Shown here: positions 8,711 through 61,509 of the stretch, piece after piece | How the letters are laid out: each line of letters starts with the position of its first letter | Numbering within the stretch: the stretch's first letter is position 1 | Assembly: GCA_016841045.1 (NCBI GenBank) | Contig: JAENZX010000021.1 | Span: forward strand, 1-61,642 | Source of the DNA: Thermincola carboxydiphila | GTDB taxonomy: Bacteria; Bacillota; Thermincolia; Thermincolales; UBA2595 | DNA length: 61,642 nt | Direction: 5' to 3' | Translations under genes and position numbers: made by a program | The notes under the pieces: model-generated | Seen by the model: the letters and a program-made list of their open reading frames with translations, nothing else | Told to the model about the DNA's origin: nothing | Database searches by the model: none

Positions 8711-8852
8711 TAGTGGGTAGTGGGTAGTGAGTGGTAGGTAGTGTAATTGATAGTGTTGCCTATTTCTTGAATAGACTTTTTCTTCCCAGCACTAGCTACT
8801 ACTACTAGCCACCAGCACTGTCCTTTCACTACTCACTACCCACTACCCACTA
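8711..8852. repeat. Inverted repeats built of TAGTGGG units
   Basis: A 22-base sequence made of tandem TAGTGGG-like units (8711-8732) recurs as a perfect inverted copy at 8831-8852. More degenerate GTAGT/ACTAC units lie between and around them. In the dnaJ-prmA intergenic RNA this would fold into a long hairpin with a roughly 98-base loop. It looks like an expanded simple repeat rather than a gene. Its role in separating prmA from the heat-shock genes is unknown. Confidence 0.75.
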
Positions 8853-8869
8853 ATCACTATTATTACCAC

Positions 8870-22902: not shown

Positions 22903-23157
22903 GTGGCTAATATTAAATCCGCTAAGAAAAGGGCAGAAATTGCAGAAAGAAACGCCATTCGCAACGCACCTGTTAAAAAGAGTGTAAAAACCATCGTTCG
23001 TAAGTTCAACGAAGCTGATACCAAAGAAAACGCAGCAGTTGCTTTAAAAGAGACGATAATTACAATAGATAAAGCAGTTGCCAAAGGTGTTTTACATAAA
23101 AATGCCGCGGCCCGCAAGAAATCAAGACTGGCTAAACGTCTCAATAAAATGGCATAA
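22903..23157 (+). CDS. rpsT: Ribosomal protein S20
   Basis: S20 binds 16S rRNA in the 30S subunit. The 84-residue protein starts at GTG 22903 (reading ANIKSAKKRAEIAERN), 8 bases after AAGGAGG; the in-frame GTG at 22894 overlaps the ribosome site and is rejected. The C-terminus GVLHKNAAARKKSRLAKRLN is typical. It is one of the few plus-strand genes here and ends in its own terminator. Confidence 0.96.
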   Translation: MANIKSAKKRAEIAERNAIRNAPVKKSVKTIVRKFNEADTKENAAVALKETIITIDKAVAKGVLHKNAAARKKSRLAKRLNKMA

Positions 23158-23160
23158 TAA

Positions 23161-23195
23161 AAAGGTTCGCTTAAACAAAGCGAACCTTTTTTTAT
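23161..23195 (+). terminator. Terminator after rpsT
   Basis: AAGGTTCGCTT and AAGCGAACCTT form an 11-bp stem with a short loop and are followed by a T-run. It starts right after the rpsT stop. Confidence 0.95.
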
Positions 23196-23286: not shown

Positions 23287-23502
23287 AGATGGCTCATAAG
23301 CCCCTTGCAACCTAAAGACAAACCATACTATAACGAAAGAGGGGATGGGATTTTTCCGGAAAGGCGAGTCTGGCATCCGCTTGTCGGAGAGCGCAAGCGA
23401 TCCGGTAACAAGCTGAGCTGTTGCCGCCTTGGAGGAAATATCCCATCCCCTCTGCTGTAATATGGTTTGTCTATGCTTTAATAAGGGCTTATGTGCCCAT
23501 CT
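23287..23502. repeat. Long intergenic hairpin, family A copy 1
   Basis: The gap between the rpsT terminator and the lepB stop is filled by a 216-base foldback. Its core (23338-23453) has AGAGGGGATGGGAT ends and a GC-rich, multi-stem interior. It is enclosed by perfect 12-base arms (23316-23327/23461-23472) and outer imperfect 20-base arms (23287-23306/23483-23502). Copy 2 lies at 61023-61234. Several paired positions differ between copies on both sides at once. Confidence 0.88.
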
Positions 23503-23503
23503 G

Positions 23504-24046
23504 CTACTTTCCTAATTTAATTACCCCAATGCGATTAGGTGGCCAGAATCTGAAAAATGCACGCCCTTTGACATTGTCCATAGGTAGAAAACCCCACGCA
23601 TGACTATCAAAACTATTATTTCTGTTATCACCCATAACAAACAGGGAATCATCAGGTACTATTGCCGGTCCAAAATCATATTCAGGAGGTTCAGCAATGT
23701 AAGGTTCTTTTATTTCCTTATCATTTACGAGCACCCTGTGATTAGTCACCTGGATTTTATCTCCTGGAAACCCGATTATTCTCTTGATATAATCACTTTT
23801 CTTTTCACCTACCTGAGCTTCTGGCGGAGGAGCGAAAACAACGATGTCACTACGGTGCAGTTCGTTAAATTTATATGTAATTTTGTCGACAAGAAGCCTG
23901 TCACCAATTTGTAAGGTAGGAATCATCGAGCCGGAAGGAATCTGACGGGCCTCAACTACATAACTGCGTAGGACGACAGTCAAAAGAACTGCAAAAAATA
24001 ATACCTGAGCAGTATCTTTTATAAAAAGCCAGGTTTTTTGTGACAT
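23504..24046 (-). CDS. lepB: Signal peptidase I
   Basis: This membrane serine-lysine protease removes signal peptides from exported proteins. The 180-residue protein has one N-terminal membrane segment (VLFFAVLLTVVLRSYVV), the catalytic Ser S40 in PSGSMIPTL and the general-base Lys K88 in DYIKRIIGFPGD, then the GDNRNNSFDSHAWG signature. I chose ATG 24046 (MSQKTWLFIKD); a GTG at 24061 in frame is an alternative with a weaker site. It is complete for a short Gram-positive type. Confidence 0.92.
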   Translation of the reverse strand: MSQKTWLFIKDTAQVLFFAVLLTVVLRSYVVEARQIPSGSMIPTLQIGDRLLVDKITYKFNELHRSDIVVFAPPPEAQVGEKKSDYIKRIIGFPGDKIQVTNHRVLVNDKEIKEPYIAEPPEYDFGPAIVPDDSLFVMGDNRNNSFDSHAWGFLPMDNVKGRAFFRFWPPNRIGVIKLGK

Positions 24047-24205
24047 AGGAAACTTCAACACCTTTCATCATCAAAAACTCTTTTTACAAAACACATACTA
24101 ATATTATATTTTATTTTGTTATAAAAGAAAATAACAAACCTTCTGGTTAATAAAACAAAAACCTGGACATTAGTCCAAGTTAATATTAGTCTTAGATTCT
24201 CTTTT

Positions 24206-24584: not shown

Positions 24585-24690
24585 ACCCGGTAACTTCGGC
24601 AACCCGGCTGTCTTTAGTGGTTAGTGACCACTACTAAGACCCGTGGCTTTGCGTCACCGCCTTTCGGCGGTTTTGCCTTTATCGGTTATT
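24585..24690 (-). ncRNA. c-di-GMP-I (GEMM-I) riboswitch aptamer
   Basis: On the minus strand the sequence contains GGCAAAACC, a GCCGAAAGGC tetraloop hairpin, GACGCAAAGCC, and a closing GCCGGGTTGCCG with a variable middle hairpin (GTGGTCACTAACCAC). These match the GEMM-I consensus, including the GNRA loop and the conserved ACGCAAAGCC segment that contacts the ligand. A promoter lies upstream and a terminator downstream. I am confident of the class; the direction of control is not provable from sequence. Confidence 0.92.
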
Positions 24691-33426: not shown

Positions 33427-33705
33427 GGTTAGGTTTCCGGTTTTCCTTTCTCAGGCTAAGAGGTCAGCATTTTGCCCGGTGTTTTCAGTGTCCCCATCTA
33501 GTCAACTAAACCGCCTCAAATTTCAAATCCTTGGGGTACCCCGCCCCAAACGCCCTCCTAGCGCTGGGCGGCTCCGGCGTCCTGCCTCCGCCCTGCGGAT
33601 TTGAAATTTGATTCGGTAAGTTGACTAAACAATGGGGACACAATGAAAAACCTAAGCAAAATGCTGACCTCTTTACTCTTGCACTGGAAAACCTAAGCAA
33701 CTAAC
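33427..33705. repeat. Long intergenic hairpin, family B copy 2
   Basis: The 439-base gap after thiL has no gene and is filled by a foldback in the opposite orientation to copy 1. A perfect 18-base arm pair lies at 33458-33475/33656-33673, CAAATTTCAAATCC arms at 33517-33530/33597-33610, and an 8-base outer pair at 33439-33446/33686-33693. The centre is GC-rich. The outer arms are recognisably homologous to those of copy 1 but carry matching changes on both sides. Confidence 0.85.
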
Positions 33706-59839: not shown

Positions 59840-59858
59840 TGTTAACCGTACACCGAAA

Positions 59859-59964
59859 TTCGCTGAGTTCAAAAGAAGCGGGGGAACCAAGATTCCGGGG
59901 TGAAGCCATTAAATGGCCGGGCTACTTTTTGGTCCGAACCCGTCAGCTAACCTCGTAAGCGTTG
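59859..59964 (+). ncRNA. c-di-AMP (ydaO-yuaA) riboswitch, copy 1
   Basis: The sequence has CGCTGAG, AGCGGGGGAACCA, GGGGTGAAGCC, GGCCGGGCTAC and CCGAACCCGTCAGCTAACCT followed by CGTAAGCG, all in ydaO order. The P1 ends CGCT/AGCG pair. This class binds c-di-AMP and commonly turns genes off. The downstream gene encodes a secreted CAP-domain protein. No strong terminator is obvious between aptamer and start codon, so control of translation is possible. Confidence 0.95.
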
Positions 59965-60045
59965 AAAAAGGGGTGTTTTTTACATTCGTTAATTGTGAAA
60001 AATATCTCTTTCTCAAGTACAATAACAGAAAGGGTGATAAGTACA

Positions 60046-61022: not shown

Positions 61023-61234
61023 CTGTCTCTTATGAGATGGCCCGCCTAATGACAAAACCCGCTTAAGCCTAGAGGGGATGGGATTTTTCCGGAAGGGCGA
61101 GTCTGCCATCCGCCTGTCGAAGAGCGGAGCGATTCGGTAACAGGCTGAGGTGTTGCCGCCCTGGAGGAAATGTCCCATCCCCTCCACCTTAGTCTAGTTT
61201 TGTCAATCACCGGAGCAAATCTCATTAGAGACAG
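61023..61234. repeat. Long intergenic hairpin, family A copy 2
   Basis: This 212-base foldback fills most of the gap between the CAP gene and the second riboswitch. Core 61071-61184 has AGAGGGGATGGGA-type ends; further arms lie at 61050-61058/61197-61205 (perfect, 9 bases) and 61023-61038/61219-61234 (one mismatch in 16). Compared with copy 1 the core is largely conserved and changes occur in paired positions. Confidence 0.88.
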
Positions 61235-61279
61235 TTTTCACATTACCATAATTTACTTAAAGGGATAAAACCTTCCTTG

Positions 61280-61309: not shown

Positions 61310-61326
61310 TCTTAAACACCATGTAA

Positions 61327-61431
61327 TCGCTGAGTTCTTATAGAAGCGGGGGAACCAGGTTTTGGGGTGAAGCCACAGTTGTGGCCGGGCTACTCTTATG
61401 TCCGAACCCGTCAGCTAACCTCGTAAGCGTT
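61327..61431 (+). ncRNA. c-di-AMP (ydaO-yuaA) riboswitch, copy 2
   Basis: It matches copy 1 in every conserved block (AGCGGGGGAACCAG, GGGGTGAAGCC, GGCCGGGCTAC, CCGAACCCGTCAGCTAACCT) but differs in the variable loops. P1 is formed by CGC and GCG ends. A G-run and a T-run follow. The gene downstream is a paralogue-like secreted protein. Confidence 0.95.
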
Positions 61432-61509
61432 AAAGGGGGGGGTGATTTTTTTTATTTTCATTCAGGCGATTACAATTTTTTTACGCATCAGCGAGAAAGG
61501 AGTACAACA

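Follow-up and report, generated by a model that had tools for sequence, protein, structure and literature searches.

The two long hairpins of the window, i.e., the contig of 61,642 nucleotides from Thermincola carboxydiphila that was analyzed over its full length, belong to an undescribed repeat family occurring in every Thermincolia genome searched (n = 10). No paper describing the element was found in the open-access literature searched, most subscription journals being outside that search. Based on sequence comparisons, the element is probably, with moderate confidence, a dispersed hairpin repeat of Thermincolia that is non-autonomous, present in high copy number and similar in nature to REPIN, ERIC and NEMIS repeats. 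This interpretation is favored because 28 copies were found in this genome, because all 10 genomes of the class contained the element in covariance-model searches (12–89 raw hits each, a figure that includes opposite-strand matches to the same copies, true copy numbers being lower), because sites lacking the element exist, and because a nested unit is dispersed in genome G009.

The two copies in the window

Coordinates of both copies, of their parts and of the genes next to copy 1 are summarized in Table 1. Both copies fold end to end, as the first-pass annotation of the window had proposed, with energies of −110.3 kcal/mol (copy 1) and −110.1 kcal/mol (copy 2) that were equaled by 0 of 200 dinucleotide shuffles in either case. 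The paired differences listed in that annotation (AAGGCG/CGCCTT to AGGGCG/CGCCCT, GCTTGT/ACAAGC to GCCTGT/ACAGGC, CGG/CCG to CGA/TCG and GGC/GCT to GCC/GGT) are all present in the sequence, and the outer arms indeed differ between the copies, yet pair within each of them, those of copy 1 being 75% complementary. With model R1, the core of copy 1 scored 122.5 bits on the plus strand versus 29.2 bits on the minus strand.

Table 1. Positions of the element copies, their parts and the neighboring genes of copy 1 in the window.
Feature	Position	Strand	Remarks
Copy 1, whole inverted-repeat element	23287..23502	+	fold z -10.95
Copy 1, modelled lower stem and apical core	23338..23454	+	model R1
Copy 1, left outer arm, contains GACAAACC	23291..23330	+	locus-specific; pairs with 23458-23497
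Copy 1, right outer arm, GGTTTGTC end	23458..23497	+	pairs with 23291-23330
Copy 1, lower stem, 5' side	23339..23357	+	partner ~23434-23452
Copy 1, lower stem, 3' side	23434..23452	+	partner of 23339..23357
Copy 1, apical domain	23361..23430	+	paired CGAGTCTG..TGAG region, G.U pairs
Copy 1, GTA bulge of the apical domain	23405-23407	+	further apical details: GA/GA internal loop, GCAA loop
Copy 2, whole element	61023..61236	+	fold z -8.99
Copy 2, modelled lower stem and apical core	61071..61186	+	model R1, 122.3 bits
Ribosomal protein S20 (rpsT)-like gene	22903..23157	+	left neighbor of copy 1; name from translation
Signal peptidase I-like gene	23504..24061	-	right neighbor of copy 1; name from translation

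The rpsT-like gene has its own terminator (23159-23191), and the signal peptidase I-like gene is convergent on copy 1, whose right end and the stop codon of this gene are 2 bases apart. Copy 2 has a CAP-domain-like gene on one side and a c-di-AMP riboswitch leader on the other.

Further features were observed in the window. Two c-di-AMP riboswitches (59851-59976 and 61318-61444) are each located upstream of a gene encoding a secreted protein; both proteins begin alike (NSIWNMVQ/QSIWDHVQ), and the pair of riboswitch and secreted-protein gene is a local duplication. A c-di-GMP-I-GGC riboswitch aptamer occupies positions 24594-24686 on the minus strand. Moreover, a long inverted repeat at 33458-33673 (two arms of 34 nt with 82% complementarity, separated by 148 nt) is without evident likeness to the element, and an inverted repeat composed of TAGTGGG-type repeats was observed at 8711-8859 (arms of 36 nt that include 25 nt at 96%).

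Distribution and anatomy of the element

The genome-wide covariance-model search suggested in the first-pass annotation was carried out with a model built from 42 copies and yielded 35 hits in this genome (4.16 Mb) for the 28 elements, counted in plus orientation, of which the window (contig C22) harbors two. Screening of the same genome by BLAST returned 33 matching pieces. Besides the ten Thermincolia genomes, a sample of 388 further genomes of the phylum was screened with the covariance model, and none contained the element. The exact core pattern had no match in viral contigs. The modelled core spans 7 genera, its carriers among named relatives being Thermincola, plus Firmicutes MAGs. Searches against Rfam release 15, run up to E = 10 for copy 1, gave no match above chance level, and neither window copy had a match at the gathering score, in agreement with the first-pass annotation, which knew of no named family with this core. 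Rfam membership of type I, type II (see below) and the G009 family was rejected, only chance or sub-threshold matches being obtained at gathering and permissive thresholds.

From the outside inward, the element (~215–300 bp) consists of a locus-specific outer arm, a lower stem of ~20 pairs, an internal loop (GGAA/TGGA) that is symmetric and optional, and an apical domain. In several genera, the outer arm includes a terminal hairpin near TCCCATAAGTAAATGGGGCA plus a T run. The apical domain, whose tip is variable, comprises an A bulge, then the CGAGTCTG..TGAG region with its G.U pairs, a bulge that contains TA and a GA/GA internal loop. Type II copies, which were found in several genera (L180, L147, L148, L183, L150 and L129–L131), possess one or two extra apical hairpins with the near-fixed sequences GCTCTTAGCGCTTTAGCGCTTAGAG and GGTACCCTTGGGGTA, the latter being almost fixed in type II copies outside this genome. 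Three tandem copies with a spacing of ~207 nt were observed at L113 6001-6532 (G000 C75:190102-190633); they carry a different outer arm (AAAAAGCCGC..GCGGCT).

Indications of selection on the folded core

In a structure-free alignment of 42 copies, 98.9% of the cells pair. The covariation test proposed in the first-pass annotation gave a score of 0.365 for this alignment versus 0.152 for shuffled and at most 0.086 for slid partners; likewise, 140 double-change cells were counted versus 46.2 ± 6.6 after shuffling and 1–27 with partners slid by 1–3 columns. Double changes were seen in 13 of the 27 modelled pairs.

Across 111 copies, the 27 modelled pairs comprise 2579 Watson-Crick, 325 G.U, 13 A.C and 46 other cells. 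Three G.U pairs are near-fixed, and the unpaired bases of bulges and internal loops are near-invariant. Parsimony changes to minority states numbered 44 for G.U versus 13 for A.C (p = 5e-5), or 27 versus 13 (p = 0.04) without the ambiguous loop-closing pair; since the alignment was fitted to the model and the tree was derived from the same columns, this bias represents good, not perfect, evidence. In a strand-neutral alignment of the arms, the lower stem showed 151 G.T versus 28 A.C cells, 50 of the 151 wobble cells coming from one inherited position, and the bias was absent in genome G000 taken alone (19 versus 14). The outer arms exhibited no strand bias in this alignment (G.T 238, A.C 288). 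The asymmetry between G.U and A.C, the three near-fixed G.U pairs and the invariant bulges and internal loops indicate that the folded plus strand of the core is under selection.

Palindromes made and kept symmetrical by template switching or gene conversion alone, with no selection on the fold, would be compatible with the unbiased outer arms, with homogenization of the first internal loop in both directions, with inverted copies of locus-specific sequence and with a mechanism that is on record (PMC8794818). However, such a process predicts loss of the conserved bulges and internal loops as well as equal frequencies of G.T and A.C; the inner part of the element displays the opposite on both counts, and the 27 modelled pairs were retained in the core across 7 genera. 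For the core, this explanation is largely refuted by the G.U/A.C bias among the 111 copies, and it is considered quite unlikely overall. The first-pass annotation had regarded the compensatory changes as strong evidence for a maintained fold. For the inner stem and the apical domain this view stands, but the pattern of two copies alone is no strong proof of selection: template switching is visible in the elements and has clearly left its mark on the first internal loop and on the outer arms. Template switching as a full explanation, which had also been raised there, does not account for the retained internal loops and bulges and the one-strand wobble bias.

Template switching in the hairpins

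Cells deviating from the commonest Watson-Crick pair comprised 246 transversion double changes, 309 double transitions, 325 wobble and 59 broken cells, numbers that count copies and not independent events. In genome G001, perfect pairing has taken the place of the GGAA/TGGA loop, the right side having served as template for the left in some copies (TTCCTCCA..TGGAGGAA) and the left side for the right in another (TTCCGGAA..TTCCGGAA). Outer arms matched their own partner with a mean local score of 13.1 versus 7.5 for other loci of the same genome, and the own partner was the unbeaten match in 54 of 113 cases. Moreover, the left arms at C75:173114 and C2:171863 of this genome are inverted matches to the coding-sequence end of the right-hand gene. 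These comparisons showed that the outer arms and one internal loop have been homogenized as inverted copies.

For template switching at hairpins, multi-base compensatory changes and the conversion of loops to stems in single events have been described (PMC8794818). The transversion double changes, the two-way homogenization of the loop and the inverted locus-specific arms are read from the sequences as the footprint of this process. Since these marks match the published description, a process at the DNA level restores pairing, with selection acting as an additional filter on the core. Copies and orthologous pairs are numerous enough to separate selection on the fold from template switching, which are usually confounded: the inner core, with its retained loops and its wobble bias toward one strand, displays selection, the outer arms template switching. 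The element is therefore a natural test system for the degree to which covariation may be relied upon as proof of RNA function.

Orthologous sites and nested hairpins

Comparison of orthologous sites showed copies that were kept, missing, core-less or apex-swapped. Many copies are common to different species, some to different genera. G008 lacks the element at the L166 and L168 sites, and G004 lacks it at the L166 site; the lower stem persists without the core at the L165 site of G004 and G008 and at the L144 site of G007. Deletion and insertion are inseparable at some sites, and the core-less sites could have arisen by deletion instead of representing the state before insertion. Between G004 and G007, the apex is 96–100% identical at 7 of 11 orthologous sites, outside one large insertion, compared to pooled identities of 85.5% for flanks and 92% for coding sequence. 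At L147/L156, apical identity holds outside a 52-base insertion. Three sites have apical identities of 77–82%, the apex having been swapped en bloc. Orthology with the copy in the rpsT region of G004 was ruled out, that copy flanking the holin-like gene on the opposite side.

Several points count against a dispersed repeat: no driver was found (see below), no clean target-site duplication was seen in the orthologous comparisons, some sites being deletion derivatives, and several copies are kept at orthologous sites, some of them across genera, which would be equally in keeping with a function for the host.

A second, larger hairpin family (~270–300 nt, core GGGTTCCCGCATGTTTGAAGATGGCGAAGGCCGCC; e.g., L254, L258 and L240 of G009) yielded 61 BLAST pieces in G009, occurs in G002, G004, G007 and G008 as well, and is absent from this genome. 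Its members fold at −186 to −237 kcal/mol, some flanking sequence included. In approximately seven G009 copies, the element described here resides within the apex of the larger hairpin with an identical junction, several of these copies being located at contig ends with only partly known outer flanks. As they share one junction, the nested unit itself has been dispersed. The repeated left flank in G009, considered as a candidate transposase gene, turned out to be the second hairpin family.

Genomic setting

Copies sit almost only downstream of stop codons. Among the 108 copies with both neighbors called, 45 lie between convergent, 61 between same-direction and 2 between divergent genes, compared to 53, 272 and 64 of 389 comparison gaps in the same loci (convergent excess p = 1e-9; divergent deficit p = 9e-6), orientations being derived from a simple codon-based gene caller. 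In 82 of 108 cases, the 3'-side gene is oriented toward the element; orientation relative to same-direction genes is only 37 to 24. In relatives, copies are bordered by inward-facing terminator-like hairpins, as judged by inspection. The promoter scan remained at chance level (1 found versus 1.1 expected); a conserved internal promoter (TTGACC plus ~17 nt) was sought by eye and is unsupported.

These features bear on the alternative that the element is a multi-copy structured host RNA, i.e., a plus-strand RNA or 3'-UTR hairpin, protein-bound or processed, for which dispersal would be secondary. The one-strand wobble bias with its near-fixed G.U pairs and near-invariant unpaired bases, the apical sequences of very high identity between some orthologous copies, the extra conserved hairpins of type II copies, GGTACCCTTGGGGTA among them, and the presence in every Thermincolia genome would fit such an RNA. 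However, the result of the promoter scan, the terminator-like hairpins, which would limit read-through, the unrelated neighbors and the apices swapped or lost at orthologous sites argue against it, and a host RNA is regarded as possible but doubtful.

Candidate drivers and proposed mechanism

No recurrent transposase-like gene was found beside the copies; among the neighboring genes, only those of paralogous sensor-type and other host proteins recurred. Y1 transposases had 0 matches in the carriers G002, G003 and G008, and reverse transcriptases are absent from G003 and G008 (G003 is only 75% complete, the other two Y1-less carriers >90%). Each enzyme is thus missing from some carriers, and neither was retained as a universal driver.

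Mobilization as single-stranded DNA in the manner of IS200/IS605 or REPIN elements, with a Y1 HUH transposase acting on one strand in the course of replication, would agree with the strand-specific hairpin and its asymmetric bulges, with the extragenic location and with the compensatory changes, which also occur in REPINs (PMC3116915). Given the three carriers without a Y1 transposase, its absence beside the copies, the orientation ratio stated above and the fact that no conserved terminal tag was established, this origin is very unlikely. A SINE-like mobile structured RNA appears improbable as well; its folded plus-strand RNA would be the moving intermediate, inserting at gene ends and hairpin apices, and fold-back synthesis would leave inverted gene-tail copies.

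For the dispersed repeat favored here, copies may have spread by duplicative transposition or ectopic copying, and a putative trans-acting factor would recognize the folded plus strand, either as single-stranded DNA or as RNA. After insertion, which would be tolerated past stop codons, hairpin-driven template switching would rewrite paired bases jointly and would also copy flanking sequence, gene tails included, across the apex, while changes damaging the core would be purged by selection. When transcribed, the element is predicted to represent a stable 3'-end hairpin. A driver or transcript, if found, would define a new class of mobile hairpin or RNA.

Comparison with known repeats

REPINs are inverted pairs of REP sequences moved by RAYT, and compensatory changes were reported to be common in their spacer (PMC3116915). 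The element resembles them in being extragenic, high-copy and lineage-specific and in forming a long hairpin of two inverted halves with compensatory changes. Neither a REP 16-mer nor a GTAG/CGTC-type tag was identified in this long inverted repeat, terminal hairpins (TCCCATAAGTAAATGGGGCA) being present in some genera only. In contrast to REPINs, it is longer than a REP doublet, possesses a structured core with fixed loops, and the Y1 tyrosine transposase associated with REPIN/REP sequences (RAYT, PF01797) does not occur in all of its carriers, G002, G003 and G008 being without a match.

ERIC, NEMIS/Correia, CIR, RUP and other bacterial MITEs have been reviewed, the hairpins of NEMIS and ERIC acting in mRNA processing (PMC2229807). 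Similarities to these repeats include the ~100–200 bp scale, the intergenic location, the non-autonomous character and a transcript that would be a long stem-loop. Unlike these repeats, the element has no visible TA or other target-site duplication, belongs to another lineage, and features a loop-rich conserved core and arms extended by inverted flanking copies. As in bacterial MITEs, i.e., short non-autonomous dispersed repeats with terminal inverted repeats, inverted arms are present and a recurrent ORF is not.

The secondary structure is conserved and supported by covariation, some double changes being due to template switching; it is of the kind that Rfam collects, yet matches none of its families. 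Multi-base compensatory changes and single-event loop-to-stem conversion are shared with template-switch-maintained RNA hairpins (PMC8794818), but were described there for RNA genes, e.g., those of rRNA, whereas the Thermincolia element represents dispersed repeats in which the process reaches neighboring gene tails. Judged by its sequence features, the element groups with the bacterial palindromic dispersed repeats (REPIN; ERIC, NEMIS), its core being far more structured.
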